Shown: positions 21,414-38,800, counted from the first letter of the stretch. The stretch: DNA of 39,214 nucleotides from Candidatus Omnitrophota bacterium (GCA_029261035.1 JAJDCD010000016.1:1-39214), one strand, 5' to 3'. Notes: generated by a model not told the origin, from the letters alone. Numbers and translations: made by a program.

Positions 21414-21731
21414 AAAGAATCTCCAAATAAGTAAAATTTATGAGCTAACCACATTGTTACACTAAATAATAATCTTTTATAATAACTTTAACTTAAATGT
21501 ACTAGATTGCCCTCAATGCTTTCTCCATAGTTAAAGTATAACACATTGGGGGGTGTATTATTAATCTGTAAAACCCTATAAAATAAGGGGTTTACAAGCT
21601 ATTTTTGCATTGGATATAGGAGTGCCCAATATTTTGACATATAAGCTTTAATGTAAAAAATAGATACACACCCAAGCAAGCATCTCTCTAAGGGGCCAGG
21701 CCCCAAAAGGGCCTGGCCCCTTAGAATAATT
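21414..21731. other. Intergenic region between the usher-like gene and the giant TpsA
   Basis: This 318-bp gap holds the leader of the giant TpsA gene, read on the minus strand. A GGAG ribosome site lies at 21421-21424. A TATACT hexamer at 21535-21540 (minus) is a weak -10 candidate without a convincing -35 box. The end next to the usher-like gene carries the long hairpin listed separately. An AAACCC/GGGTTT inverted repeat lies near 21570-21595. I see no small gene or riboswitch here. Confidence 0.5.
21688..21724. repeat. Perfect 16-bp GC-rich hairpin, possible orphan REP sequence
   Basis: CTAAGGGGCCAGGCCC at 21688-21703 and its exact reverse complement at 21709-21724 flank a 5-nt loop. The hairpin lies 8 bp past the stop codon of the usher-like gene. 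There is no T-tract on the minus strand after it and only a weak AATAATTTT run on the plus side, so it is not a textbook intrinsic terminator. Its GCCAGGCC core is also the core of the repeats flanking the RAYT gene at 28256-29035, so it may be a scattered member of the same REP family. It could still block transcript decay or elongation. Confidence 0.75.
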
Positions 21732-24653
21732 TTAGCTATTTGAGCTTACTTTTTGGGCGACATATTTTAGGATGGGTTTAAAACCAAAGTCGAAACGTTT
21801 TTTTACGGTAGGTTGTGATGATATTTCAATCTCGAATGTCTCTCTTGAAGTTAATGTATAAGAACCTCTAGTTAGACTTTCATCAACTTGTATTTCATAA
21901 TTTCCGGGAGTTAAACTACGGAAGACATAAAACCCGTCTTTATTCGTCATAATTTCTTCTGAACCTAAACGCACAACAATGCCACTCATTCCTCGTTCAT
22001 CTCCAGACATTCTTCCATTTCCATCAACATCTTCAAACACATAACCTGAGATACTTCTTTGCGCTTTTAGAGGGACATCGTATTCATAAATTTGCCCTGC
22101 GGAAGTATCAAAATCTTTTCTAATAGGAACTAAAGATTGATATCCATCAGGAATACTCATAATACCTAAGTTAACAGAATTCTCTCCAGGTTTTACTTTG
22201 CGAATGTAATAATAACCTTCAGAACTTGTTCTGGCAGACTGTCCAGAACCTAGATTAATTACTACGTTTTGAATAGGCTCATCTAACCCTTCATCATAAA
22301 CTTTATTTTGGTTCACATCGTTAAAGATACGCCCTTTAACTTCGACCTCTGTAGAAACACCAAAGTCGACCGTTAAAGCCTCTTTAGGTAGAACAAAGAC
22401 ATCCTGCGAGCTAGCTGTAGTAAAGAATGCTCCTTGTGGAATTGTAGACTGATCCACCTTTAAGGTTACACTCCCTTCTTTTATTCTCTTCAAACGATAA
22501 CTGCCTTCACTCGTGGTATTAAACGATTTCCCACCTTCGACATAAACCCGGACATCACCGATCCCTGGCTCTCCAGGATCCCTTACTCCATTAATATTAA
22601 TATCCTGAAAAACAACCCCATCAATAGATCCAGGCTGTGGAAATACAAGCTTCGTATCCCATAGAGCTCTTACCCCAGAGAATAAGGTAACTTCAACATC
22701 AGCCTCTCTTCCCACCTTGATTGTTTCTGATTTACGATACCTTATATTCCAATTGGAAAAGACCTCTATTGTATCTGTAATAGGCATTGTAATATTGGCA
22801 ACCCCTTCTAAACGGTCATCATCACTAAAGCTTTGATGAATACGATTAAAGGTATTTCTAACATTTTCATATCTGAAAATAACGTTTACATTCATAGGTT
22901 TAATAATCGGAAACTTTACTTTACGCCCATACCCGAGACTAACCGTGAAACGACTAGGAAAAATACTACCCGGCTCATCGCTCGGTATTTCTTCTTTCAA
23001 AATAGCTTTTGTTAAAGATACATTAGCCGTAAATCCATCAAAAAGACTGGCTCCTACAGAAACTGAGGCTTGCTCTAAACTTGCATCAAATCCAGGGATG
23101 AAAATCGATTTTTCCCACTTATCTCTTTTATTGCCAATAGAAAGATTAATTCTCTTAATACCATATTTATTAATATAAAATGTTTTAGCTAATTTTAAAC
23201 TGTATCCCCAATTAGTAAAAGGCTGAGAGCTTGCACTTTCATCTTTGTAAAAAATACGGCCTCTTAACCTTACTTTAAAAGGAAATCGAACAGAACCTGA
23301 AAGAGAATAAGACTCATTCATTTCACTAAAATTATTAGCATTTCTATCGGTAGTGTCATCAGAAAGAACATTCTGAAAAGTAAGACTTATAGCGTTATTA
23401 AAAAAAGGAGGATTTACATTAACCGTATTCTCCCATCGGGTTTGCCCTTCCGTTCCTATGGTCCCCTCAACAGAACGATACCGCTTAGACACTTTGATAA
23501 AACGCTCTCGGATCGTAACCCACTTCAACGGTCTATACCGAGCATTTAGTCTTACAGCACTTCCAGGACCATTGGTGGCTAACTCTCCATCCAAGGACAA
23601 GTAATCTCTAAATTTAAAATCAAAACCTCCAGAAACCACATTATTGCTTCTTCCAGTAGCGAGTTTCCCATAGCGATTAATCAATATCCCATAGATCTTC
23701 CCCTCATCCCAAAGGTGATATACCACCTTATTCGCCCGAACATGATTGTGCCCTCCTCTAGGTTGAAAACCTGCCCTAGAATCCAATATAGACCCTTGCC
23801 TTACTTGCCCTTCAACATAAGTCCAGTCCAACCTCCCTTTCTTTCCTATTCTTAAACGTGATTTAGCAGGATGAAGCCCAAAACCTCTTATTTTTCTTCC
23901 TCTTAAAGTAAATCGAGTAAAATCTAAAAAATTATCTACCGCAACTAAATCAACCTCTCCAAGAATAGGTGCTTTTACATTCTTTAATTTAAAAGATAAA
24001 TTACGAAGTTGAGTTACCTCTTTTCCGATCGATTTGTCTCTTCGTGATTCAATATAAATATCACTATCAAAATCCCCAAAGGGTAAAGCCATAGTCACCT
24101 TACCTTGATGAACTCGAGTTCTAGTTTCTTCCTGAAGGTCGGGTTGACTGAGCTTAATTCCTGAATCCAGGTTACGATGAGACGCTTCATATCGAATCTT
24201 CAAACTTCTTTGACCGAGATCTAATTTCTGACGGCGAATATTCTCTTTCCCTTTCTTGATCCGTTCTCTAATAATATTTAACTCAACCACGTCAATCCGA
24301 TACGTTCTTATCCCTGACTCATCCAATACATGAATCAAAGAATTTCCTTTTCGAACCCCCTTAAGTTCTACTAAATTATTCAATGCTTTTTCTATTTTAA
24401 GGGCACTTGGATCTAGAATAAGAACACGGGCTTTTCCGATGGTAGGGATAGAAAGTTGTTTCGTTCTTTCAACTTGGAGTATTTCTATCGAAGTAGGACT
24501 AATAGAAGTCACAACTTCAGGATTTGGATTAAAAGAAGATACAACATCTATAGAATGGGCAGAAGGAATATACATCCCTAGGACAAGTAACACCACTAAT
24601 CCTTGAAATGTAAATTTACTATAGAAAAAAAAGATGCCTATTTTATTAAACAT
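21732..24653 (-). CDS. Usher-like outer-membrane protein with secretin/pilus N-domain and SdrD-like C-terminal repeats
   Basis: This 973-residue protein has a signal peptide (about 1-34, cleavage after AHS). At about 45-125 is a domain resembling the secretin/pilus N-terminal family (pil_N type): LVELKGVRKGNSLIHVLDES followed by GIRTYRIDVVE. Residues about 190-675 show alternating, aromatic-rich sequence without hydrophobic helices, as expected of an outer-membrane beta-barrel. Three prealbumin-like SdrD-B-type modules start near 676, 771 and 868 (for example GVVFQDININGVRDPGEPG and GYVFEDVDGNGRMSGDE). Following four small secreted proteins and a chaperone-like gene, it occupies the usher position of a chaperone-usher pilus operon. 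It is not a recognisable FimD/PapC and resembles the alternative (CS1-like) layout more. The usher role is inference. It could instead be a barrel adhesin. ATG 24653 follows AGGGG. Confidence 0.7.
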   Translation of the reverse strand: MFNKIGIFFFYSKFTFQGLVVLLVLGMYIPSAHSIDVVSSFNPNPEVVTSISPTSIEILQVERTKQLSIPTIGKARVLILDPSALKIEKALNNLVELKGVRKGNSLIHVLDESGIRTYRIDVVELNIIRERIKKGKENIRRQKLDLGQRSLKIRYEASHRNLDSGIKLSQPDLQEETRTRVHQGKVTMALPFGDFDSDIYIESRRDKSIGKEVTQLRNLSFKLKNVKAPILGEVDLVAVDNFLDFTRFTLRGRKIRGFGLHPAKSRLRIGKKGRLDWTYVEGQVRQGSILDSRAGFQPRGGHNHVRANKVVYHLWDEGKIYGILINRYGKLATGRSNNVVSGGFDFKFRDYLSLDGELATNGPGSAVRLNARYRPLKWVTIRERFIKVSKRYRSVEGTIGTEGQTRWENTVNVNPPFFNNAISLTFQNVLSDDTTDRNANNFSEMNESYSLSGSVRFPFKVRLRGRIFYKDESASSQPFTNWGYSLKLAKTFYINKYGIKRINLSIGNKRDKWEKSIFIPGFDASLEQASVSVGASLFDGFTANVSLTKAILKEEIPSDEPGSIFPSRFTVSLGYGRKVKFPIIKPMNVNVIFRYENVRNTFNRIHQSFSDDDRLEGVANITMPITDTIEVFSNWNIRYRKSETIKVGREADVEVTLFSGVRALWDTKLVFPQPGSIDGVVFQDININGVRDPGEPGIGDVRVYVEGGKSFNTTSEGSYRLKRIKEGSVTLKVDQSTIPQGAFFTTASSQDVFVLPKEALTVDFGVSTEVEVKGRIFNDVNQNKVYDEGLDEPIQNVVINLGSGQSARTSSEGYYYIRKVKPGENSVNLGIMSIPDGYQSLVPIRKDFDTSAGQIYEYDVPLKAQRSISGYVFEDVDGNGRMSGDERGMSGIVVRLGSEEIMTNKDGFYVFRSLTPGNYEIQVDESLTRGSYTLTSRETFEIEISSQPTVKKRFDFGFKPILKYVAQKVSSNS

Positions 24654-24738
24654 AAACCCCTATGACATATCAAAATCTAGCATAATTATTTAGAAAATGG
24701 ATAGTAAGCTAAGTATTATTATCGACTATTCTAAGTAA

Positions 24739-25599
24739 TTATTTTACTTCAAAATCGATTTCTTTAATCAAAGCTTCTGCACCATCAGGGTTTAATTCAT
24801 AAGTAAGTAGAACTTTGTACTTCCCGGGAGGAATATCACCACTAAATTCCGCCTTTTCACTACCCACATCACCAGGAAAAGACTTAAAACCAGGGAGGGC
24901 TCCTTTTCCATAAAGGCTCCCAGAATCATCCAAAATAAAATAAACACCACTTAGGTCAATGTGCGCATTCCCCGTGTTTTTGAATTCATATTTAATACTG
25001 AGAGGTTTGTCCTCAGAAGGAGGGCTAAAATCCAATTTGGTAATTTCACCTGTTCTTCGAATACTTCCTTGAATTTCAAAAAATACAGACATCCCAATCC
25101 TAGGAATGGTTATCAACTCCGCTTGTTTTTCAGCTTTCTCTTTATCTGAAAACTCTGGAACTCCACGAATAAATAAATAAGCTGCATATCCACCCGATAG
25201 AGCGTTTTCTGGAGGAGACAAAACAAACTTTAAATCAATAAAATTGCCCGGTTTAACAATCGAGCCTTCTCCTTGAAGAATCTGTATCCAACGAGCGCAA
25301 GAATAAGGTGTTGAGCCTAAAGGTTTTGCTTGTCTAATAAGCTGCCCCTCCTTATTTCTTACATTCCCTGTATCACCCACATCCGTAAGAATTTTCATAG
25401 AACTTCCGCCTTCGTTAAAAACACGAACCTGCCCAGAAACAGCTTCTCCCTGTTCACTAACCAATCGAATTCGGCTAGGAGAAATCTTCAAACCTAGGCC
25501 AGCGGCTTCAACTGTAGGAAGCTCCAAAATGGAGATACTTAGAAAAAGAACTACTGGAAACATAAAAATGTGATTAAAACTAAAGTATCTTATCTTCAT
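24739..25599 (-). CDS. Periplasmic pilus-chaperone-like protein
   Basis: The protein has 286 residues and a signal peptide (about 1-32, cleavage after VEA). The mature part reads as two Ig-like beta-sandwich domains. The first (KISPSRIRLVSEQGEAVSG, then VRVFNEGGSSMKI) has the strand order of PapD-like and DUF916-like proteins, including the region SCARWIQIL followed by V-K-P-G. The second (SIKYEFKNTGNAHIDLSGVY, PPGKYKVLLTYEL) also looks Ig-like. No membrane helix follows the signal peptide, so it should be soluble in the periplasm. Its ATG overlaps the stop of the preceding subunit gene by 4 bp (ATGA), indicating translational coupling. Proposed role: holding the small subunits and delivering them to the usher-like protein encoded next. 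The assignment rests on fold-like pattern and context, not on a clear family signature. Confidence 0.65.
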   Translation of the reverse strand: MKIRYFSFNHIFMFPVVLFLSISILELPTVEAAGLGLKISPSRIRLVSEQGEAVSGQVRVFNEGGSSMKILTDVGDTGNVRNKEGQLIRQAKPLGSTPYSCARWIQILQGEGSIVKPGNFIDLKFVLSPPENALSGGYAAYLFIRGVPEFSDKEKAEKQAELITIPRIGMSVFFEIQGSIRRTGEITKLDFSPPSEDKPLSIKYEFKNTGNAHIDLSGVYFILDDSGSLYGKGALPGFKSFPGDVGSEKAEFSGDIPPGKYKVLLTYELNPDGAEALIKEIDFEVK

Positions 25600-26087
25600 T
25601 GCGTCACCACCCTAAATGTTAAGTTTGAACGATAATATCCAGATTTTTGACCTACAGGGACTCTTACGGTATAGGTAATAATCAAACGCTCATCACTCCC
25701 TTGATCATCTGAAATAAAAATTTCAACTTCTCCCTCTTGCAAACTTACCGTACTCGGAAAACGCACCGTCCCGGTTCCGTTACTACTAATAATATAAAAA
25801 TCAACCTCTTCAACAGGAAAGTCTTCTCCTTCTTCATTCTGCCAAGGACCAAACAAACTTTGGTAAACTCGATATATTTTTCCCGAATCATTATCAATTA
25901 CAATCTCAACTTCTCTAACCACATAATCGGATTGAGCTTCCCCTCCAAAGCCTAAACTTTGAGCCTCTCCAAAACTAACGTCCCGACCACCCTGCAACGG
26001 TTGCACATCAATAGCAATTTGACCAAAGACATTACCTGTTGAAAGCAACATAATCAAAAATAGGAATAAAATATTTTTTAATTTCAT
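25596..26087 (-). CDS. Small secreted pilus-subunit-like protein (paralogue of the gene at 26097)
   Basis: The protein has 163 residues and a clear signal peptide (1-22, cleavage VFG/QIAID). The mature protein is beta-rich and has no cysteine. It shares a layout with the neighbour at 26097-26603: YR(V/I)xQS, then F-P-(V/L)-E-(E/K)-V-x-F, then a V-P-V-G or I-P-A-G turn and a final amphipathic strand (RSNLTFRVVTQ here). A P-x-G-x-Y-like turn before a last strand is common in fimbrial subunits. The ATG has an AGGA ribosome site and lies 9 bp after the preceding stop. The stop overlaps the chaperone-like start. Probably a minor or adaptor subunit. I recognise no named family. Confidence 0.65.
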   Translation of the reverse strand: MKLKNILFLFLIMLLSTGNVFGQIAIDVQPLQGGRDVSFGEAQSLGFGGEAQSDYVVREVEIVIDNDSGKIYRVYQSLFGPWQNEEGEDFPVEEVDFYIISSNGTGTVRFPSTVSLQEGEVEIFISDDQGSDERLIITYTVRVPVGQKSGYYRSNLTFRVVTQ

Positions 26088-26096
26088 CTATTTTTC

Positions 26097-26603
26097 CTAA
26101 AACCTTTCCTCTCGAATATCTATTCGAGCCCGGTAATTCCCTGCAGGAATAACTTCTTTTTCGTCTACTAAATAAGATATCGTAAATAGATCAGCATCTC
26201 CATTAGAGTTAGAAACAAAAATCACAGTTGAATCTTTACTCATAGATCGTTCTCCTGTGACCTGAGAAACACCTCCGTTTTTACCATCACTCACTAGAAA
26301 TCGAACCTTCTCCAAAGGAAAAATAAAACCAGATTCATTTTCAAAATCATCCTGAACCGACTGAACAATGCGATAAGAATTACTTTCATTCGTTTTAATA
26401 TTAACCTCAAGAGACTGAAGAACCCTTTGTCCTCCAGGATAAATTGGGCCTAATGTTATGTTCCCTCCCTCTTGTGTTTGTATATCTAAAGCAAATGCAG
26501 GTGAAATCTCAATTTCAAAAGCTACCGTTTGCGTATCTGAATCCTGAGCATACGCTGTTGTAGCAAAGAGTAGAAAAGTAATTAAAATTAATTTAAATCT
26601 CAT
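26097..26603 (-). CDS. Small secreted pilus-subunit-like protein
   Basis: I prefer the ATG at 26603 (168 residues) to the upstream ATG at 26624. The later start has a GAGG site 8 nt upstream and gives a compact signal peptide, MRFKLILITFLLFATTAYA, cut before QDSDTQ. The longer form would overlap the previous gene by 11 bp and add a charged leader. The mature protein is beta-rich, with a central SYRIVQSVQ and a C-terminal IPAGNYRARIDIRE strand resembling the last strand of fimbrial subunits. It is a clear paralogue of the next gene (25596-26087). Spacings of about 10 bp on both sides mark it as part of one operon. No named family recognised. Confidence 0.65.
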   Translation of the reverse strand: MRFKLILITFLLFATTAYAQDSDTQTVAFEIEISPAFALDIQTQEGGNITLGPIYPGGQRVLQSLEVNIKTNESNSYRIVQSVQDDFENESGFIFPLEKVRFLVSDGKNGGVSQVTGERSMSKDSTVIFVSNSNGDADLFTISYLVDEKEVIPAGNYRARIDIREERF

Positions 26604-26613
26604 AAAACAAACC

Positions 26614-27150
26614 TCACTGTCCATCCACTATGGTTAGTGTTAAAATTTGAGCATCGGTCCCAGCAGGCATTACAGAGTTAAGCGTTCCCTTCCAAGTAAT
26701 CGTCAATGTTCCATCAATACAAATATCTCCTTGTCCTGTCCCTGGGGTTTTATCCGCTAAGTCCGTAGTCGTTGTTGCAATAGTTACAAAACCTCCTGAG
26801 GACTCTGCCAAAGAAGCAAAACTAGGGTCTCCAAGATTAGAATAAGAATCCACATCTCCTTTAAAATCAACATGTTCAAAATCATCGGAAAGAGCTGCTG
26901 AAATGGCTCCATTGATTGTTCCTGCAGCCATAGTGTTAGATTGAACGGTATAAACGACTTGCTCTGAATTACTATCGGTACCAGGGAGGAAGTTGGGAAA
27001 CTCTAAAACAATAACTCCAACAGAAGCAGAAATACTCAATACAGGAGGAGCTCCAACAGTCAAAATAACAGCCCCTGCATTAATGGGCCACATAAGCAGT
27101 CCCAAAAAAAGGGCCCCGCAGCAAAAAAATTTAGAATGTAATGTTTTCAT
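26614..27150 (-). CDS. Small secreted pilus-subunit-like protein
   Basis: The protein has 178 residues with a signal peptide (1-27, cleavage INAGA/VIL). The mature part is beta-rich, G/T/S-rich and has one cysteine (GDICIDGTLTITWKGTL). It ends in a P-A-G-T turn and a final strand, ILTLTIVDGQ. The overall plan matches the first gene of the cluster (27361-27939): both have a (T/S)-x-K-G-T-L-(N/T)-S motif about 20 residues from the end and finish TLT(I/V)-(V/N)-D. They may therefore be divergent paralogues. An AGAGGG ribosome site precedes ATG 27150. It is the first gene after the terminator at 27232-27273. Probably a minor or tip subunit. No named family is certain. Confidence 0.6.
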   Translation of the reverse strand: MKTLHSKFFCCGALFLGLLMWPINAGAVILTVGAPPVLSISASVGVIVLEFPNFLPGTDSNSEQVVYTVQSNTMAAGTINGAISAALSDDFEHVDFKGDVDSYSNLGDPSFASLAESSGGFVTIATTTTDLADKTPGTGQGDICIDGTLTITWKGTLNSVMPAGTDAQILTLTIVDGQ

Positions 27151-27215
27151 AATAATCCCTCTAAATCATAAGACGAAACCTAAATCATTCTATTCGCAAC
27201 TTATTGTATAGATCT

Positions 27216-27221
27216 ATTATA
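27216..27221 (-). promoter_or_regulatory. Candidate -10 box for the distal pilus genes
   Basis: A perfect TATAAT lies on the minus strand just downstream of the terminator and about 65 bp upstream of the gene starting at 27150. No good -35 hexamer sits 16-18 bp away. It may be a weak internal promoter or a chance match in AT-rich DNA. Confidence 0.3.
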
Positions 27222-27231
27222 GCGAATAATA

Positions 27232-27273
27232 AAAAAACGGGAACACAAAACATTCTCTGTGTTCCCGTTTTTT
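27232..27273. terminator. Strong intrinsic terminator after the first pilus-subunit gene
   Basis: A perfect 16-bp inverted repeat (AAAAAACGGGAACACA and its complement, 27232-27247 and 27258-27273) encloses a 10-nt loop. On the minus strand the GC-rich stem is followed by a run of T residues, so it should end transcripts from the gene at 27361-27939. The A/T flanks are symmetric, so it could work in both directions. Partial read-through would give less transcript for the five genes downstream. Confidence 0.9.
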
Positions 27274-27360
27274 AGAGAGACTTCTCTATCCTAAGAAGTA
27301 GCTCCTTCTTTTTATTACTATGCGCATATAATTATGTTACAACCCAAACATTAACTTAGA

Positions 27361-27939
27361 TTATGCATCATTAACAGTTAATGTAATTGTAGCTGTTTCT
27401 CCACTAAATGCTGGTTGTGCTGATGTTAACGTACCTTTAACTGAAAAAGGTATCGTAGCATCAATGGTCTGTTTCGCCCCGGCTGCAACTACTGCCTTTG
27501 CTACTAAATTAGTTGGAGAAGTAGTCAAAGTTGTAAAAGCACCAGATGAATCAGATAAATCAGTAGCGTCTAAACCACCGCTACCCCCATTTTCTGTTAA
27601 ACCAGCAGAGTTAGGGTCAATCTTAATGTCGATAAAACTGATAGCTGCATCAATAGCACCCGTAACAAAATTCGATAACGCACCTACGACAACAGCATTT
27701 CCAACAATCGTCGCATTTAAGGTAATCGTATCAGAATCTGTTCCAGAAGCTTCATCGGCGAAATCCATTGTTGTATCACCGCCTGATGCTGCTGTTACAA
27801 TGGATAGTGATGATTGTTGTTGCATCGTCACCAAACTACCTCCATCATTTGCAGTAGCAGCCCAAACATTAGATGTACCCAACCCAAATGAAAGCCCAAA
27901 TATCAACATAGAAACTAGCATTATTTTTGGAATCTTCAT
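27361..27939 (-). CDS. Probable major pilus subunit (secreted, riboswitch-controlled)
   Basis: The protein has 192 residues with a signal peptide (1-27, cleavage NVWA/ATAND). The mature part is rich in A, G, T, S and D, has no cysteine, and alternates like a beta-sandwich. It ends in FSGETATITLTVNDA, a last strand like those of fimbrial subunits. It is the first gene of the cluster, preceded by a promoter and a GEMM-like riboswitch and followed by a strong terminator, an arrangement that would make it the most abundant product. AAAGGAGAG lies 6-10 nt before ATG 27939 and can be masked by an upstream complementary stretch. The major-subunit role is inference from position and composition. I cannot assign a protein family. 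Confidence 0.65.
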   Translation of the reverse strand: MKIPKIMLVSMLIFGLSFGLGTSNVWAATANDGGSLVTMQQQSSLSIVTAASGGDTTMDFADEASGTDSDTITLNATIVGNAVVVGALSNFVTGAIDAAISFIDIKIDPNSAGLTENGGSGGLDATDLSDSSGAFTTLTTSPTNLVAKAVVAAGAKQTIDATIPFSVKGTLTSAQPAFSGETATITLTVNDA

Positions 27940-27946
27940 GAGAGTC

Positions 27947-27990
27947 TCTCCTTTCGCTTTCGCGTTAATTATTTAGAATCGAAAAGGAGA
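27947..27990 (-). promoter_or_regulatory. Shine-Dalgarno-sequestering hairpin in the pilus leader
   Basis: On the minus strand TCTCCTTTTCG (27980-27990) can pair with CGAAAGGAGA (27947-27956), leaving one bulged base. The second arm contains the ribosome site of the gene starting at 27939. This would form a translational expression platform for the upstream aptamer. Pairing was read by eye. Confidence 0.6.
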
Positions 27991-28037
27991 ATTGCTTGGG
28001 GCTACTTTACCCAATAATGGAAGGTGTTCTTATACCC

Positions 28038-28149
28038 AAAATTCGGTAGCCGGGCTGCCATTGAAGACCCCTTGCTTTGCCATGATCCTTTATAGGTTCA
28101 TGTCCCCTAACTTCAGGGAGTCCCATCTTTTCAGATGGTTTGCCATTTT
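28038..28149 (-). promoter_or_regulatory. GEMM-I (cyclic di-GMP-I)-like riboswitch aptamer with an insertion
   Basis: Read on the minus strand, the hallmarks occur in order. GGCAAACC (28137-28144) opens the P2 hairpin CCATCT-GAAA-AGATGG (28123-28138), which has a GNRA tetraloop, and is followed by GGGAC (28120-28124). Next come GCAAAGC (28074-28080), GGGGTCTT, and CAGCCCGGCTACCGA ending at about 28042. A short closing stem AAAAT/ATTTT joins 28145-28149 with 28038-28042. The class I cyclic di-GMP riboswitch normally runs GGGACGCAAAGC without a break. Here 39 nt (28081-28119) able to form two small hairpins are inserted. The first G of GGCAAACC, which I align with the base that separates cyclic di-GMP from cGAMP binders, is G, favouring cyclic di-GMP. 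Ligand identity is inference. Confidence 0.78.
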
Positions 28150-28174
28150 CGATTCAGATTTTTTATTTGTTTCT

Positions 28175-28209
28175 ATTATAAGTATCCCCCATAAATCACC
28201 ATAAGTCAA
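28175..28209 (-). promoter_or_regulatory. Sigma70-type promoter of the pilus cluster
   Basis: On the minus strand TTGACT (28204-28209) is separated by 17 bp from GATACT (28181-28186). A perfect TATAAT follows immediately (28175-28180) and may be the true -10 with a poorer -35. Either start would place the transcript about 20-35 nt before the riboswitch aptamer. Confidence 0.55.
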
Positions 28210-28255
28210 ATCCAAACACAAACCCTAACTCATTTATCTATAACACCTTACCCAC

Positions 28256-28303
28256 CCAAAGTGCCAGGCCTTTCACCTCAAAATTGTAGCAAAGTGCCAG
28301 GCC
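28256..28303 (+). repeat. Left 48-bp inverted repeat of the RAYT element
   Basis: This arm contains two direct copies of CAAAGTGCCAGGCC (starting at 28257 and 28290) separated by TTTCACCTCAAAATTGTAG. Its reverse complement occurs at 28988-29035 with a single mismatch (47 of 48). It resembles a REP-doublet arrangement, with the cores GTGCCAGGCC at 28261 and 28294. Confidence 0.9.
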
Positions 28304-28373: not shown

Positions 28374-28967
28374 ATGGGAAGAGGGCCAAGAAACTTATAT
28401 CCAGGAGCTTATTACCACGTATACAATCGTGGAGTAAATAAGCAAAAAATAGTATTTGATAATGAAGATAAAAACCTATTTATCCAACTTTTGTGTAAAT
28501 CTATAAGAGAATATGATGCAAATCTAATTTCCTTCTGTCTTATGGATAACCATTTCCATTTATTTCTACAAACAAAGCTTCCAAATCTTAGTAATGCAAT
28601 GTGGTTCTTTTCTTCCCGTTTTGCCTATTTGATTAATGAAAAATACAATCGAGTCGGTCCGCTTTTTCAAGGAAGGTTCAAATCACGTGATGTTCAGGAA
28701 GAACTCTATGGGAAAGTATTACTTAGATATATACATAATAATCCATGCGATGCACATATAGTTTCAGCAGCTGATCAATACAAATGGTCTAGTTTTAATT
28801 GTTATTCTGATAAAAATTTAAGTTGGGATTTTATAGACACAAGAAATGGGTTTTTATTTTTTGATAAAAATCCACAAAGAGCAAAAATGGATTTTATGGA
28901 ATTTCATGCACAACACCCTTCTATAAATTTAGATGCCAGATTGAGAAACATGCGTTGTTCTCTCTAA
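28374..28967 (+). CDS. REP-associated tyrosine transposase (RAYT, Y1/HUH family)
   Basis: This 197-residue protein belongs to the IS200-like Y1 transposase superfamily. It has N-terminal YHVYNRGVNKQKIVFD, the metal-binding HxH at residues 60-62 in MDNHFHLFLQ, GPLFQGRFKS near 95-104, and YGKVLLRYIHNNP with Tyr112 as the probable catalytic tyrosine. It ends the family core with YKWSSF. These motifs are intact, so the enzyme could be active. Family knowledge: RAYTs nick and move short REP hairpins. The inverted 48-bp repeats on both sides are the likely substrate. It is the only plus-strand gene and sits between the tpsB pair and the pilus promoter. The leader is extremely AT-rich and no Shine-Dalgarno site is visible before ATG 28374. 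Confidence 0.9.
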   Translation: MGRGPRNLYPGAYYHVYNRGVNKQKIVFDNEDKNLFIQLLCKSIREYDANLISFCLMDNHFHLFLQTKLPNLSNAMWFFSSRFAYLINEKYNRVGPLFQGRFKSRDVQEELYGKVLLRYIHNNPCDAHIVSAADQYKWSSFNCYSDKNLSWDFIDTRNGFLFFDKNPQRAKMDFMEFHAQHPSINLDARLRNMRCSL

Positions 28968-29049: not shown

Positions 29050-30768
29050 CTAGATGTCCATGCGGATGGTGAAGTGGAGTCTGGAGTGATCTGATTCTGT
29101 GAGGGGTTCGTTTCCTAGGGCATGTGCAAAAATGAGGTCAAGGAACATGTATTTGTAGAGTCTCATTCTAAGGCCTGCGCCTGCTCCCAATAGAAAGCGG
29201 GACCGCACTTCAAATTGAGAAGGGCCTTTTAAGCGACCATAAGCTGCATCCAAAACAGATAATAGCTGCATACGATCTTTTATCACCGTATTCGTAAATG
29301 GAAAAGTTAAATTTTTAGGAATAAAAAAGGCAGGCATCACATACTCAATAGAAGCTAATACGCCTTGGTCTGCCAAATAGTCCCCTTCAGGATAACCTCG
29401 AACTGTATTTGCTCCTCCTAAATAAAATTGCTCTTGTGGAAATAACTTTCCTTTTGATAATTGAAATTCTAAATCAATGTTTGCTTGAGTCCCAAAAGGC
29501 ATAATCTGACTTCGAGATATAGAACCATTGAATCTAGCTAAATTAGGTTCAGCGCCTCTCCTTCCCGAAAATGGATTATTTACCCCCGAAGCACCAAACC
29601 CCTGAATCCCAAAAGACAACTCTCCATTGAGTCGTGTCACACCATAACGGTCTTGAACCGTTCCTTCAATGGAAGGTCTCAAAATTCGAAGTCTATCTCT
29701 ACGACTAGTACCAATAACACTTGTGGTTACGTTATCTTTAAAATCAAACACAGCTTGCGCATGAGAGGTAATGCGTTCATTCTCAAATAGAAGCTGTCTT
29801 AATGTGAGGGAGTATGTTTTAGAAATTCCCTGAATATCCGATCCCTTAGAGGCTCTCTTAGGGGCCACCGAAGAATAACTAAAACTAGGAATTAATTGCG
29901 TTCCAAAAGGACCAATAGGAATTAAATATTGGGCATAGACCACTCCAAAATCTTTACCAAATACAGTCCCCGTTTGTAAGGTACTATCAGGGATAATAAA
30001 GTTCGTATGGCGCGCATTGAAACCTATCCGTTTTCTTCCCGTGGATCGAACTCCTTGTTGATCAAATTGAAAACCCGCATGCAATGGGAATCTATCTTGT
30101 ACTTTTAAATAAATATCGGTGGATCCTGTATCTTCTCCTGGTCTCATAATGGCCTGAACCGATCGATCTGGGTTCTCATTCATCCTCCGAACACTTACCG
30201 CTAACTGCTCATATTTTAAATTCTCTCCTTCTTTTAAACGTGAATATCTTCGGATAGACTTTTCAGAAAACCACTTATTTCCTTCAATAATCGTTTTTCC
30301 TACTTTACCTTCAACAACTTGAATAAGCAGCTTCTGATCTTTAACTTTTTGAGGCGGAACATAACAAATCGCGGTAACAAAACCTTTGGTACGATATATG
30401 TTCTGGATCTCTGAGGCTAAATCATTAGCTTCGCTCAGCTTAATTTCTTTTCCTTCATAATTGGAAATCAAAACAACCAAATCAGAAGTAGGAATTGCTT
30501 CATTTCCTGCAATCTCAATAGAATCTACATAAAAACTTATATCTTGGTCAACGGCAGCTTGTTGAGGACGTTCAGGTTCAACGATTTGAGGACGTTCAGG
30601 ACGGGAAAGTAATTGTTTCCTTGCGTCTCGATTTACTTGGGATTCAATCGTTGCTGCATCAGCGCTAGCAGGGGGTTCAATTACTTGTTGAGCAAAAGCT
30701 GCATTGCTAAATAAGAATAAGCTTAAGCTTAAGAAGAAAAAAACCTGTTTAAAAAATTTAGACAACAT
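29050..30768 (-). CDS. TpsB outer-membrane transporter (ShlB/FhaC family), second of tandem pair
   Basis: The protein has 572 residues with a signal peptide (1-26, cleavage AFA/QQ). A proline-rich linker of about 50 residues follows. POTRA domain 1 (about 79-152) starts FYVDSIEIAGNEAIP and contains YRTKGFVTAICYVPPQ. POTRA 2 follows with EGNKWFSEKSIRRY. The rest is a beta-barrel containing the family signature TVRGYPEGDYLADQG, the conserved VRGY loop, and it ends in a strand finishing LHFTIRMDI. The TpsB function is to recognise the TPS domain of a TpsA in the periplasm and export it. It lies 57 bp after the paralogous gene at 30826, so the two are probably co-transcribed. The cognate TpsA may be either giant protein of this window. 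This cannot be decided from sequence. Confidence 0.92.
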   Translation of the reverse strand: MLSKFFKQVFFFLSLSLFLFSNAAFAQQVIEPPASADAATIESQVNRDARKQLLSRPERPQIVEPERPQQAAVDQDISFYVDSIEIAGNEAIPTSDLVVLISNYEGKEIKLSEANDLASEIQNIYRTKGFVTAICYVPPQKVKDQKLLIQVVEGKVGKTIIEGNKWFSEKSIRRYSRLKEGENLKYEQLAVSVRRMNENPDRSVQAIMRPGEDTGSTDIYLKVQDRFPLHAGFQFDQQGVRSTGRKRIGFNARHTNFIIPDSTLQTGTVFGKDFGVVYAQYLIPIGPFGTQLIPSFSYSSVAPKRASKGSDIQGISKTYSLTLRQLLFENERITSHAQAVFDFKDNVTTSVIGTSRRDRLRILRPSIEGTVQDRYGVTRLNGELSFGIQGFGASGVNNPFSGRRGAEPNLARFNGSISRSQIMPFGTQANIDLEFQLSKGKLFPQEQFYLGGANTVRGYPEGDYLADQGVLASIEYVMPAFFIPKNLTFPFTNTVIKDRMQLLSVLDAAYGRLKGPSQFEVRSRFLLGAGAGLRMRLYKYMFLDLIFAHALGNEPLTESDHSRLHFTIRMDI

Positions 30769-30825: not shown

Positions 30826-32544
30826 TTAAAAGTCTGAAGTCAAAGTAAAGTGGAGACGAAATTGATCTCCTTCATTAGGAACTGCTCCGATGGCTTGAGC
30901 AAAGTAAACCCGTGCAGAAACATGATTGAAGAGATTCATCAGAACTCCACCGCCAGCACCTGCAAGGAATTTATTGTCGCGCTCTCCATTGAGTGGGCTT
31001 TGCAACCAAGCTCTGCCTGTATCAAAAAACCCTACTAATTGAAATGTATCTCTTAAATTGATTTGATGTCCAAAAATTGAAATAGGTTTCTTAGGAAAAA
31101 AGTAAGTTGGTATTCTTAACTCAGCAGATCCAATAAATCCATAATCCCCCAAATAGTCTCCTTCAGGATACCCTCTAACCGTTTCCATCCCACCAATCCT
31201 AAATTGTTCTGAAGAGACTAATCGATCTGGAGAAACTTGTGCTGAACCTTTTAAAATCAAAATTTGGTCCCACCATAATCTTTGAAAACGAATAGCCCCT
31301 ATGCTGTAGGCAAAAAACTGCCCTCCCGTTTGAGCTCTACTCGCATTTTCATCCTTTTTATCTGATGCTCCTAAAATAGAACTAAAACCAAAACTTACTT
31401 CATTAGTCAATATCGTTCTACCCCACTGATCATATTGAGTAATATTTGGACCAAAACGAAGAACTCTTAATTGATCAAGGGAATCTTCTCGAGCTAATAT
31501 TCGAGTTCGACTTTTAGATATATCTACACCAAAATTCATCGATCCTTCAAAACGAGAAGTAACAAATAAAGGAATGCTTAACGTAGGGTTAATTGTTGTA
31601 GACCCACCAAGAATCTCTAATGGTTCTAGCGATTTCCCCAAAGATAATTGCACATGACTAAAATTTAAACCCGCTTCCCAACCCTTAGAATTGATTGGAA
31701 CATTATAAGAAGCAGAAATTCCTACCAAGCCTAAACTGTTAGACAACAAAACACGTGAAACCAATCGATCATTAAGTGTTAAAAAATTATTATGCGTCAA
31801 AATAATATTTTGACGATTACGCCCCGAGAATTTCGTTCCCAAATTATCAAATTGATGCCCAACATGAATAGGAAACTTATCTTCAATCTTCACAATGATA
31901 TCTGTAGATTCTTCAATTTCACTGGGTGCTAAAACAGATCTTGCTGAAAGATCAGGATTCCGATTCAAACGAAGTAAACTCCGTTCAAGATCTTGAGCAC
32001 GTAAAACCTGTTGAGACTTCATCCCAACTAAACGTTTAATTGAATATTCTTTAAACCACTTTTGTCCCTCTACTTGAATTTCTCCTACCTTCCCTTCTAA
32101 TATTTTTATTTTAACGATACCTTCTTCTATTTTTTGAGGAGGGATATAAGCTTGACTGGTTACGTAACCTTTACTTCGATATAAAGCGGTTATTTGTTTG
32201 GCACATTCACTGATCTCTGAAAGTAAAATATTTCGATTCTGAAAATCTTGAGTTATCTCTAAAATTTCTTCTCTCGAGACAACCGTATTTCCTTCAATTT
32301 CAATTTCTTTAATAAAAATTTCTTTTTTAGGAAGTTCGATCCCATCCTCTTCTTGAAGGGGCTCGTCAATATCAACTTTTGCACGTGGTTTTGGAATATC
32401 AGGCATTCTTTGACGGCTAATTGCTTTTGCTTCTGCGGATACATCTGCAGAAATATTAGGAGGAGGTATTTGTTGAGCAAACCCACTTGGAATACCTAAA
32501 GAATAGAAAAATGTAAGTAGAACTAAAGCATATATATATTTCAT
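30826..32544 (-). CDS. TpsB outer-membrane transporter (ShlB/FhaC family), first of tandem pair
   Basis: I choose ATG 32544 (572 residues) rather than the in-frame GTG at 32553. The ATG follows a GTGGA-like ribosome site and directly starts the signal peptide MKYIYALVLLTFFYSLGIP (cleavage GFA/QQ). Two POTRA domains follow a charged, proline-containing linker: the first has IEIEGNTVVSREEI and YRSKGYVTSQAYIPPQ, the second EGQKWFKEYSIKRL. The C-terminal barrel carries TVRGYPEGDYLGDYG and ends LHFTLTSDF. It is a clear paralogue of the gene at 29050 along its whole length, indicating an old tandem duplication. It follows the second TpsA gene on the same strand after about 280 bp, the usual tpsA-tpsB order. 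Export of that TpsA is the simplest role. Confidence 0.92.
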   Translation of the reverse strand: MKYIYALVLLTFFYSLGIPSGFAQQIPPPNISADVSAEAKAISRQRMPDIPKPRAKVDIDEPLQEEDGIELPKKEIFIKEIEIEGNTVVSREEILEITQDFQNRNILLSEISECAKQITALYRSKGYVTSQAYIPPQKIEEGIVKIKILEGKVGEIQVEGQKWFKEYSIKRLVGMKSQQVLRAQDLERSLLRLNRNPDLSARSVLAPSEIEESTDIIVKIEDKFPIHVGHQFDNLGTKFSGRNRQNIILTHNNFLTLNDRLVSRVLLSNSLGLVGISASYNVPINSKGWEAGLNFSHVQLSLGKSLEPLEILGGSTTINPTLSIPLFVTSRFEGSMNFGVDISKSRTRILAREDSLDQLRVLRFGPNITQYDQWGRTILTNEVSFGFSSILGASDKKDENASRAQTGGQFFAYSIGAIRFQRLWWDQILILKGSAQVSPDRLVSSEQFRIGGMETVRGYPEGDYLGDYGFIGSAELRIPTYFFPKKPISIFGHQINLRDTFQLVGFFDTGRAWLQSPLNGERDNKFLAGAGGGVLMNLFNHVSARVYFAQAIGAVPNEGDQFRLHFTLTSDF

Positions 32545-32553
32545 GTTATCCAC

Positions 32554-32822: not shown

Positions 32823-35800
32823 TTATGCTTTGGATGAAGCTTCAGGAGTTCCGTTGATTTGTTCAAAGTAGAAGTTGAAATCGTACGTTCCTGCAGATGG
32901 ATTATATTCAAAGATATGTTTCACTATAAAATATTTGTCGTCTGGCGTTTTAAATAGGCTTGATGCCAACCTCAAACGACGATCTAGTTTATGTAACATA
33001 TTTTCAACAATAAGATTGTTAGCAAAGAGTCCAAATTTATTATAGTTCTTCACCTTAACAATATCTGAAAAATTAAGTCCTGAACCCTTTTGATCTTTTG
33101 CTGTTAAAGAAGAGGCTCCAAAGTTCATCGTATAAGAAATTGTAAGATCTAAATCTTTTTGTTGATCATCAGAAAAAAGTAAAGACAAATCAAAAGTAAA
33201 CTGCATAAAGTCTCCACCTTCAATAAACCCTGTATCGGAGTCTACTAGAATCTTTTCAGCCAATAGAGAATCAGCCAAAGCTCCATAACGTCCTACATTT
33301 TCAAGCTTAAAGAAATCCCCTTCTCCTAAACCTAAAATACTTATTAAATTTAGAGGGGATGATAATAGCTGAAGAGCTTGATCCCCCTGAAGAAGTAAAT
33401 CTTCAAACCAAGCATCCAAATCAATCAACGATTTACCAAATGGGATTCCATCATTTTCAAAACTTTCTAAGGCAGTAAAAAGTCCTGCTAAAATATCTTC
33501 AGAAAGAGCAAATGGAGGAAGAACAGAACTTGATGCTACAGGAAGTGGGAATAACAATATTCCATTGAAGTAAACTTCTCCACCGTAAGGAAGAGATAAT
33601 GCTAATGTGTTCGTTGGAGTAACCGTTCCATTCACATTAACAGAAATTCCAGCAGCATTAACACCTGGAGCAAACACGGTTAAAGAACCCCCAATCACAT
33701 TAACATCTACAGAAGTTGCTGCCCCACCCACAAGACCACCACTAATCGTTCCTAATGCTCCTGTTGCAGTTAATGTAGAATTTCCATTCGCAGTAAAGTT
33801 ATTTGCTGCTCCATTGTTATCAATAATAGATGAGCCGTCCGTTGCAGAAACATCAAAACTACCACCCGTAGCTGTAATCGTTGTTACCGTAATATCTCCA
33901 GCACCATTAAAGGTTACATTCCCCGCACCCGTATTAATATTCTGAATATCAACAGCACCTGTTTGATTAATTGCAATATTTCCTGTTGTTGTCGTAGCAG
34001 TCAATACATTTACGGCTGTTTCAAGAGCTCCTGGGTTACCAATAGCTGTTGCTGCAGTTAGAACCAAAACGTTAGCCGTAATATCTACAGTTCCATCTGT
34101 TCCTATTTCTTCAATACGTTCAGCAGAAGTAATTGTCACGTTACCAGTCGTATTTACAATATCTACATTCACATCTCCAGAACCTGTTGTAGTCAACATA
34201 ATGTCTGCACCTGGAACACTGGCATCAACCTCTGTTGCATTCAAAGCACCATTATTTGATGTCAAATCAATATTTCCGGTATCCGTTGCTTGAGCTGCAT
34301 TAACGTTCATACCCCCTTCTGAAGTAGATGTTAGAGAATTCCATGTTTCAGCAGAAGCATAAGTAATCACACCGTTTGTTGCGTTCGCCGTTAAGTCCAC
34401 ATCGCTTACTGTTCCACCAAAAAGAACGCCTCCAGTTCCAATTGTAAGAGCTCCCATTTGATTTAATGTAATATCTCCACCATCCGCATTAACAGCCAAA
34501 CTACCTCCTGCTGTTTGTTCTATACCAGCATTGGTAGCTGTTAAATTAATATTTGCAGCATTAAGATCTGCAGTACCATATTCAATCCCTCCAACACCTG
34601 TTGTGCTCCAATCTAAAGTGTTAGCCCCTTGCACATTAATTGTTCCTGTTCCTGTAGCATCAATCGTTCCGGTAATCGTATTGTTTGTAGTAAAATTTCC
34701 ACCATCCACATTTAATGTTCCGCTAACATTAAGGTCTACTGAGTTTGAATCTTGAATATCTAATCCATTGGTGTTCGCATTCAACGTTGTCGCTGTTAAA
34801 GTAACTCCAGCACCTTCAGCATCAATGGTACTAGCGAGTGTAATTGTGTCATTCGCCTGTAAGGTCACTCCCGTTCCTGTTAAACTTCCAATAATTACAT
34901 TTGCTCCACCTGCATTCGCTGTTACGGTGACAGCCCCCGTAGCCGTTAACGTATTCGTGCCGGCTGCAATATTTCCTGTAGTTGCTTGCAAAGTTATCAC
35001 TCCGTTATCCGCTGTTTGAGAATTACTAACAACAACTCCTGTTCCACCCGTTACAGCAAGACTATTTAAATTAAATCCATCCGCTATAGTAATCTGTCCT
35101 GCACTCGTACCAGATAAATCAATATGGGTTATGGTGCCTCCTAATAAAACCCCTCCAGTTCCAATAGTAAAATCGGGAGTTTGGTTCAACAAGACATCTC
35201 CTCCATCTGCATTAACAGCTAAACTTCCGCCAACACCTTGTGAAATTGTAGCTCCGACATTCGTTGTATTTAATGTGATACTTGAAGCATTAAGGTCTGC
35301 ATTACCATAGCTAATTCCTCCAGCACCACTCGTGCTCCAATTTAAACTATTCGCTCCTTGTACATTAACTGTTCCTGTCCCTGTAGCATCAATTGTTCCA
35401 GTAACTGCATTATTGGCTGTAAAATCACCACCATCTACATTTAACGTTCCGCTAATATTAAGGTCTACTGAGTTTGAATCTTGAATATCTAATCCATTGG
35501 TATTTGCATTCAAAGTTGTTGCTGTTAGCGCAACAGCGCCACCTTCAGCATCAATGGTGCTAGACAATGTAATTGTATCTGTTGCATTTACAGTCACACT
35601 ACTTCCTGTCATGCTGCCTAAGGTAATGTCAGCAGCAGCTGTTCCATCTATTGCTGTAACCGTTACAGACCCTGTAGCAACTAAGTTGTTAGCTCCACCA
35701 GCAATCGCTCCATTTGTTGCTGCAATATTAATATTTCCGTTGTCTGCAGATTGTCCACCACTTAACACAATTCCATTTTGACCCGTAGTGATCAATGCAT

Positions 35801-38800
35801 TCCAAACACTTGTACTTAAGTAAGTAACAACTCCGCCCGTTGAGAAAACACCCAAATCAATATCCGCAATGTTCCCACCAAATCCAATTCCTCCAGCCCC
35901 AATCGTAATACTTCCAGCTTGCGTTAACGTTACATCCCCGCCATCCCCATCCACTTCTAATGTTCCTGTAGCTGTTTGAGTAATAGATCCCGCACTTGCT
36001 GTCAAAATAATATTTGCTGCATTAAGATCTGCATTACCATAGGTAATACCACCAGCACCACTCGTGTTCCAATTCAAGTCATTCGTTCCCAAAACATTAA
36101 TGGTAGTTGATCCCGTTGCATCAATCGTTCCTGTAACTGAATTATTAACTGTAAAACTTCCTCCATTTACATTCGTGGTACCAATATTAAGGTCTACGCT
36201 ATTAGAATCTTGTATATCTAACCCACTAGCTGTTGCATTCAATGTTGTCGCTGTCAACGCAACAGCTCCTCCTTCTGCATCTAATATGCTAGAAAGGTTA
36301 ATCTCATTGTTAGCGCTTACGGTGATTCCATTTCCAGTTAAACTTCCTAAGGTTACATCACTTCCTGCTGAGTTCGCATTCACGATAACAGAGCCAGCTC
36401 CAACCAAATTATTATTGCCTGCATTTATATTTCCTGTTGTTGCTGTAACACTGATATTACCTGTATCCGTTGTTTGGGTTCCACTAATAACAACCCCTGT
36501 TTGTCCTGTAGATGTAAGTGAGTTTAAGTTTTGAGCTCCTGTTATTGTCACAAGCCCAGCTGTTGAGTTTGCAGTTAAATCTATATCCGCACTTGTTCCC
36601 CCGAGAAGAACTCCACCAGCACCTAACGTCAGTGCTGCTGATGTATTTAAGGCAATATCTCCACCATTTGCATTTACACTCAAACTTCCACCAACTCCTT
36701 GCTGGACACTTCCAGCTGTTGTGGTTAAATTAATATTTCCTGCATTAACATCTACGTTTCCATAGGTAATTCCTCCAGCACCACTCGTTTGCGCTGTAAA
36801 GTTATTAGCACCTACTACATTTACTGCTGTTGATCCTGTTAAGTCAATTGTTCCGGTGATTGCATTATTAATCGTATAGTCTCCACCGTTTACATTCGTA
36901 GTACCAATATTAAGATCCACTGAGTTTGAATCTTGAATATCTAATCCGCTCGTTGTTGCATTCAGTGTGGTAGCTGTTAAATTAACAAACCCACCTTGAG
37001 CATCTAAAGTACTTGATAATGTAATCGTATCATTTGCAGTTACTGTAATTCCATTACCTGTTAAACTACCTGCTGTAACATTTCCACCCAGGCTATTAGC
37101 AATTAAGGACAAAGAACCTATAGAAGTAAAATTGTTGCTGCCTGCATTTATATTTCCAGCAGTTGATTCAAGGAATAGATTTCCAGTTACATTTATTCCG
37201 ACATTAATATTAAGGTTATTTGCTACTTGCAATGTAATTACATCACCACTTACATTTTCATCCACGGTTAAATCTGCTGTTGAATTAATTTCAACATCAC
37301 CCGTTCCAGCATCAACCCCATCCAATCCTCCAACTCCACCTATAATCAAACTTCCTGTATTATCAATAAATACTCCACCCGTATTCGTGCTGGCTTCAAG
37401 GTTACTTAAAACAGTTTCAATAGGATTAATCAGCGTACCTATTCCTGTATCTGATATAAAACTAGCCCCACTCGCTGTAAGGTTATTTGTAGCTCCATTA
37501 TCATCCACAACACTTCCGTTAGTAGCTTCTAAATTAATAGTATCTGGAGCGTTGATCACACCCAAATTAATATCTGCTGTATCTGCTGTAAGGTTGACAT
37601 CATTTCCAGCACCGGTAACAAGAACATCTACAACTTGGATTCCACCACCAGAAGAAAAATTAAACGTTCCATCCACAACATCAATATCTTGTAATATTAA
37701 TTCATTTGATTCGGATATATGAACATCCCCAGAAGTACTCGAATTTAAATTTAACGTATCTGCAGAAATTTGAAATGGATTAATTAATGTTCCAAGACCT
37801 GAAACAACATTTACAGTTAAATCTGTTGCTGAAACATCAACAGATGCTGTGCCCCCCGTTACCGTTCCGAGTTGAGCCGTTAAACTTACTGCTAATGTTG
37901 AATCGATTCTTGCATTTCCACTAAACGCTATAGCATCCGTTGCTATACTTGCCGAGTTAACCGTAGCAACATCATTAAATGTTGTCGTACCAGAACCATC
38001 CACCTGAGTTAAAGCTCCTACCAAGTTGACAGTCTCCAAATTCACATTTCCGGCATTGCTGATAGTAAGAAATTCTAACGCTACCAAACCACCAACAGCA
38101 GAATTAAAAGTAATAGAGCTAATTCCTATATCTAAAGTAAGCCCTTCATCTGCTCCTCCTGCCGTTCCATCAATAGTGTCTGAAAAAGAAACCACTCCAT
38201 CTGTTACATCGTTGGTATCCACAACTACATCAGCACCTAAAACCACAGGGCCATTTACAGTAACATTTCCACCGTCTGTCGTTAGATTGGCATTCAAATT
38301 AACTGAACCATCCGTTGCATCTAAAATAAGTTCTGATTGATTTGTTGTATTAAGAGCACCACTCACGGTGATACTTCCACCTACTTGTGGGGATTGTATA
38401 GTTACATCTGAATCAAAAGTTACCGTGTTTACGGTAACAGCACCATCTCCATCTGTTCGACCTATCGTAATAGAATTAAAGATGCCCATTGCTGCCAAAT
38501 CTGTAAGGGTAATGTCTAAAGGAGCTCCTGAATCAGCTGCTCCGCCCACAACTACCGCTTGTGAAGCTGTCGCTGGCTGTAACGTAATAGTTGTTCCTGT
38601 AACGGTATCAACTCCACCTAAGAAGTCAATTTCTCCTCCAATAAATATTGAATCCCCACCCCCATTTACATCTCCGTTATATTCTTGTAACCCTGTGCTT
38701 GTCATATCCATATCTGTTGCCGTAACATCACTGTTTGCTGTAAAAGTTGTAGAGTCTACAGTTAACGTAGTACCCACAATTAATTCATCATCAAAAAGAA

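Follow-up and report, generated by a model that had tools for sequence, protein, structure and literature searches.

The window analyzed here (i.e., the whole stretch of 39,214 nucleotides) carries six minus-strand open reading frames (ORFs) in the region from 21,732 to 28,209, which we designate p6 to p1 from upstream to downstream (Table 1). All of them are present, in the single direction and in the order given in the original prediction. The spacings of 4 to 10 bp that the same prediction assigned to the cluster are only partly correct. The genes are tightly packed in p5-p4-p3-p2 only, where p5 and p4 overlap by 11 nt, p4 and p3 are separated by 9 nt, and p3 and p2 overlap by 4 nt; larger gaps separate p6 from p5 (210 nt) and p2 from p1 (85 nt). 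A terminator-like hairpin of 19 pairs lies within the p6-p5 interval. This consensus match could lower the expression of the downstream genes, and with the p6-hairpin-p5 arrangement, p6 may be produced in larger amounts than any other subunit. A Shine-Dalgarno-like sequence (AAAGGAGAG) precedes p6. Searches of the window proteins against Pfam and NCBIfam yielded nothing above the cutoff for p2 to p6 and only SdrD_B-type matches for p1.

The riboswitch anticipated in front of the cluster is also present and belongs to the c-di-GMP-I type. Its aptamer, located upstream of p6, is the only match to RF01051 above the cutoff in the 2.7-Mb source genome. The GGC variant gave a better E value (1.7e-6), yet this match remained under that variant's own gathering score.

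TABLE 1 Features of the pilus-like gene cluster, with positions counted from the first nucleotide of the window
Feature	Position	Strand	Description
c-di-GMP class I riboswitch aptamer	28042-28154	(-)	37.2 bits versus gathering score of 35; GGC variant best by E value
p6	27361-27939	(-)	192 aa; secreted pilin-like subunit, probable major pilin, donor-strand-like N-terminal extension
Terminator-like hairpin, 19 pairs, between p6 and p5	27232-27273	(-)	Consensus match only
p5	26614-27150	(-)	178 aa; secreted pilin-like subunit, p6 paralogue
p4	26097-26624	(-)	175 aa; secreted subunit, ~16-residue donor-strand-like N-terminal extension, p3 domain family
p3	25596-26087	(-)	163 aa; secreted subunit without N-terminal extension, probable tip subunit
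p2	24739-25599	(-)	286 aa; periplasmic two-domain Ig-like chaperone, FimC/EcpB/WxLIP-like fold
p1	21732-24653	(-)	973 aa; outer-membrane usher-like protein
p1 secretin-type (T2SS-T3SS_pil_N-like) N-terminal domain	24285-24485	(-)	Residues 57-123
p1 barrel	22644-24206	(-)	Residues 150-670; ~26 predicted strands, no plug insert
p1 C-terminal SdrD_B-type modules, three	21783-22637	(-)	Residues ~673-957
Long G+C-rich hairpin directly 3' of the p1 stop codon	21687-21725	Listed for (+)	Possible operon end

The chaperone-like protein p2

The AF2 model of p2 (pLDDT, 93.2) consists of two Ig-like domains with the PapD-type fold of FimC, CfaA, EcpB, and the Gram-positive WxLIP, in line with the earlier description of this protein as a two-domain Ig-like periplasmic protein. 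In VIA-align comparisons, WxLIP ranked first (Z = 14.0; 231 aligned residues; RMSD, 7.9 Å) and FimC second (Z = 13.7; 185 aligned residues; RMSD, 4.1 Å), followed by YadV, SafB, Caf1M, CfaA, DraB, CsuC, CupB2, PapD, and EcpB (Z = 12.8 for Caf1M, 12.7 for CfaA, 12.5 for CsuC, and 11.5 for EcpB). Foldseek likewise gave WxLIP the best E value (3e-13), with the CfaA type being the best among the pilus chaperones (CfaA; 1.9e-9). At the sequence level, a p2 profile matched WxLIP best in the PDB (E = 3.1e-7; EcpB, E = 2.8e-5), and hhalign related the p2 family to EcpB/EcpE of the alpha type with a probability of 93%, versus 68% for six classical K-12 chaperones. Among 59 p2 relatives, 16 touch the WxLIP_PGBD model, and the sole invariant residue is R167. 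This residue opens the strand that precedes the domain border, and hhalign aligned it with R-I of the FimC-type G1 strand. PapD_N (PF00345), a family suggested for comparison in the original prediction, was not matched by p2 of the window and exceeded the cutoff in none of the 193 phylum genomes. The suspected kinship of p2 with both pilus chaperones and DUF916/WxLIP proteins was found on both sides, EcpB being the nearest on the pilus side. A chaperone of this type links the PapD family with the Gram-positive WxLIP proteins.

The WxLIP matches, which were the best for p2 in both the Foldseek and the sequence profile searches and recur in the 16 relatives, would suit a WxL-like surface complex without a polymeric fiber, in which p2, as a WxLIP-type bridge, would fasten the small secreted proteins to the envelope and p1 would serve for export or anchoring. 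Strand donation is predicted in WxL clusters (WxLIP, DUF916/DUF3324) too, since a WxLIP strand is predicted to complete the WxL sandwich (PMC10599100). We nevertheless consider such a complex improbable: the RMSD of p2 is lower to the chaperone-usher chaperones than to WxLIP, p2 has an usher-like barrel as its partner across the phylum, and extensions on all subunits except one would be needless in a nonpolymeric complex. WxL clusters are known from Gram-positive bacteria and contain no outer-membrane barrel, and WxLIP has a C-terminal transmembrane helix that p2 lacks.

The usher-like protein p1

The AF2 model of p1 (residues 1 to 672; pLDDT, 87.4) comprises a domain at residues 57 to 123, a helix at residues 126 to 143, and approximately 26 strands between residues 150 and 670; the large barrel expected for this protein is thus predicted. 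The best VIA-align match was FimD (Z = 17.9; 395 residues), with residues 143 to 669 of the model placed on FimD residues 134 to 662 (i.e., along the whole length of the barrel), while MtrB, another large barrel, scored 17.2 and further barrels scored 16. The top 12 Foldseek matches were all PapC/FimD (E = 5.5e-11 to 2.4e-8), and the next unrelated barrel followed at 1.6e-7; in these comparisons of the model, Foldseek separates the usher likeness of p1 from other barrels better than VIA-align does. Sequence homology to ushers was undetectable: hhalign with the E. coli ushers gave 2.6%, profile comparison detected no relation to EcpC, and the usher model PF00577, which matched its E. coli control, matched neither p1 of the window, nor its relatives, nor any of the 193 phylum genomes. 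Because of these negative results and the close score of MtrB, the usher likeness of p1 rests on its predicted fold. Taken together, the fold matches and the sequence comparisons suggest that p1 probably works like an usher, though it is no member of the usher sequence family.

The secretin/pilus-type N-terminal domain claimed for p1 was recovered through the family, given that 43 of the 50 p1 relatives matched PF13629 (T2SS-T3SS_pil_N; best E, 3.5e-15); p1 of the window itself did not reach an E value of 1. SdrD_B was matched by all 50 relatives, many of which carry TPRs at the N terminus, and SdrD_B stretches were found for the three C-terminal modules of p1. The N-terminal domain family is common to p1 and the RcpA/CpaC-type secretins of Tad systems. 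Unlike in secretins, no secretin domain is listed after this domain in p1 or its 50 relatives, and the remainder of p1 is a single-chain barrel.

The original prediction that p1 departs from the FimD/PapC layout agrees with these results. In addition to the unmatched usher model, the predicted barrel contains no plug domain (its longest nonstrand stretch is ~17 residues) and has approximately 26 strands versus the 24 of classical ushers; the secretin-type domain stands where the usher NTD would be, and the SdrD_B modules stand in the place of CTD1/CTD2. Instead of a separate class, the system could be a branch of one of the known chaperone-usher clades that has diverged too far to be recognized by profiles; the alpha type (class 5; CFA/I CfaA and the E. 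coli common pilus EcpB/EcpC) would be the most likely candidate. This alternative concerns classification and implies the same mechanism as the one proposed below. The sequence relationship of p2, closer to EcpB/EcpE than to the classical chaperones, points in this direction. However, we find this assignment unlikely, as p1 shows no relationship in sequence to either EcpC or PF00577, lacks a plug, and differs in its end domains.

Two families of secreted subunits

Sequence comparison assigned p3 and p4 to one domain family and p5 and p6 to another. In p4-type proteins, ~15 to 17 residues with alternating hydrophobic residues (QDSDTQTVAFEIEISP) lead from the signal peptide to the domain, the lengths of such extensions being dependent on cleavage sites placed by a crude rule; in p3-type proteins, the domain begins almost directly after the signal peptide. 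Donor-strand-like stretches are found at the start of p4, p5, and p6 but not of p3. The p3-type/p4-type pair also occurs in several relatives, and 35 loci carry three-domain p3/p4 fusions (~460 aa), in which domain 1 begins shortly after the signal peptide, and linkers with a strand-like segment lead to domain 2 (median, 23 residues) and domain 3 (median, 21 residues). As far as the sequences indicate, this extension pattern is what donor-strand complementation with a single tip subunit (i.e., p3) would look like.

Profile searches with the subunit families matched no known pilin profile and no PDB entry, hhalign of the subunits with the K-12 pilins was not significant, and p3 to p6 matched none of the WxL families in Pfam. 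The NCBIfam family CPR_Pam_pilin_C was rejected as an identity for the subunits, since its weak matches, in 6 of 62 domains and with E values of 0.0084 at best, are far under the cutoff; a literature search found no paper on the Pam pilus.

Conservation of the gene cluster in Omnitrophota

Relatives of p2 were found in 86 of the 285 Omnitrophota genomes, and an independent search placed a p1 match on the same strand, at most 5.5 kb after p2, in 67 of these 86; in several of the others, p2 lies at a contig end. A profile of the p1 N-terminal domain and barrel matched at E values of ≤1e-10 in 189 of 384 genomes, including long matches at approximately 100 places; the short matches are confined to the TPR region at the N terminus, a part also found in other proteins. 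In gene maps of 60 loci, the chaperone is preceded by secreted proteins of pilin size and followed by p1; as most of these loci were chosen through p2, this count is biased when taken by itself. A widespread order in the phylum is a three-domain protein of ~460 aa, a protein of ~200 to 250 aa, the chaperone, and p1. The pairing of the chaperone with the outer-membrane protein and the adjoining pilin-like genes are kept across the phylum, so that the lack of co-occurrence named as a refutation in the original prediction does not apply.

Scanning contigs with p1 alone gave no match. With an alignment of eight main-clade p1 relatives, the scan found 39 loci, all of them titled Omnitrophota or Omnitrophica except three with other or unspecific titles; such a pattern scan is no strong test of absence outside Omnitrophota. 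The viral contigs and plasmids scanned contained no p1 relatives.

This conservation bears on a non-pilus secretion system, in which p1 would export proteins in general and the small proteins would be separate secreted adhesins, perhaps tied to the adjoining giant adhesins. The position of the operon between two giant repeat-rich ORFs and next to two FhaC-type transporters would accord with it, as would the matches of p1 to nonusher barrels such as MtrB. The giant neighbors, however, lie outside the conserved cluster in the relatives, and p1 regularly comes with a chaperone of its own and with several subunits that are paralogues; we regard this possibility as very improbable.

Chaperone relatives also occur in other surroundings. 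At locus L107 (8176-14186), three successive chaperone paralogues alternate with subunit-like genes on a contig without an usher-like gene; an usher-like gene of this genome is located elsewhere (L110). At L108, L109, L114, and L115, chaperone relatives without an usher-like protein have other neighbors (e.g., a 2,216-aa protein at L108) and possibly represent other systems built on the same chaperone fold.

Riboswitches and a mini-protein of the relatives

A riboswitch of the c-di-GMP-I type is present at 36 of the 48 scanned loci (i.e., the window and relatives). It lies on the operon strand upstream of the subunit genes in the window and at six other loci, whereas at approximately 32 loci it is found on the other strand, beyond the 3' end of p1, and mostly shortly before a small convergent gene. 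Such a gene follows p1 in most relatives (approximately 40 loci; e.g., L094:9665-9928(-), L090:9401-9715(-), and L103:9915-10172(-)) and encodes a mini-protein, mostly of 72 to 115 aa, with a signal peptide, a donor-strand-like segment with the motif S-x-S-F-K-V-S-x-T-I-P, and a C-terminal tail. The next best matches of a 17-residue model of the mature motif include many N termini of operon pilins, with weak E values. The mini-protein of L073 retains a piece resembling a subunit domain, and L074 and L080 have a subunit-like protein in its place. In the source genome, no mini-protein was found (best E, 1.7). Judging from these sequence features, the riboswitch-linked mini-protein is a candidate pilus terminator, which would offer a donor strand without an acceptor groove and thereby end the pilus at its base.

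Proposed assembly mechanism

We established the genes, the riboswitch match, the predicted folds of p2 and p1, the gene order, and the pattern of subunits with and without extensions; they are best read as a distinct pilus system of the chaperone-usher-like kind with a new composition, which largely bears out the original prediction. The operon shares with classical chaperone-usher pili (FimC-FimD of type 1 and PapD-PapC of P pili) the two-domain Ig chaperone fold, several small secreted subunits, and a chaperone gene directly before the usher or usher-like gene. It differs in that its barrel and subunits have no sequence similarity to theirs and in that neither PF00577 nor PF00345 is matched above the cutoff. 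That the parts work together as described below and assemble a fiber appears likely to us.

The subunits p3 to p6 would be exported by Sec, and p2 would hold each of them before handing it over to p1; the G1 strand of p2 (approximately residues 167 to 176) would probably be inserted into the incomplete sandwich of the subunit. With its large barrel, secretin-type N-terminal domain, and C-terminal SdrD_B modules, p1 would serve as an usher-like gate through which the subunits are secreted. The even number of strands predicted for the barrel implies that both ends of p1 are in the periplasm, where they may replace the usher NTD and CTDs as docking sites. Polymerization would proceed by donor-strand exchange, each incoming subunit (p4, p5, or p6) completing the previous one with its N-terminal extension; p3, having no extension, would form the tip, and p6/p5 would form the shaft. 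Binding of c-di-GMP by the leader RNA would set the expression of the operon.

Most known chaperone-usher pili come from a small number of phyla and have a single usher design. A phylum-wide plug-less variant with other end domains would reveal which usher parts are essential, and we tentatively entertain the idea of a separate Omnitrophota-wide pilus class, in which a secretin-type domain gates a plug-less usher and most members use a c-di-GMP-controlled mini-subunit, with a donor strand and no acceptor groove, to stop pilus growth. The riboswitches, which sense the surface-life signal c-di-GMP, provide a direct handle on the timing of surface-fiber building in uncultured, possibly host-attached Omnitrophota. 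Our literature search found no papers on plug-less ushers or on ushers outside the known phyla, and a genome survey of Omnitrophota treats giant ORFs as well as pili of the type IV and Tad kinds, with the word "usher" being absent from its main text (PMC10066038).

Neighboring genes

The window also contains two giant ORFs, 3-21413(-) (7,137 aa) and 32823-39212(-) (2,129 aa), both of which run off its ends. The start of the former resembles a filamentous-hemagglutinin-type adhesin. Two FhaC/ShlB-type transporters (29050-30768 and 30826-32553) suggest two-partner secretion. A Y1-type transposase gene, 28374-28967(+), adjoins copies of a motif containing GGCCTGGC, with repeats near 28250-28300 and at 21687-21725. 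The transposase and the motif copies may constitute a REP/RAYT pair; one such hairpin directly follows p1.
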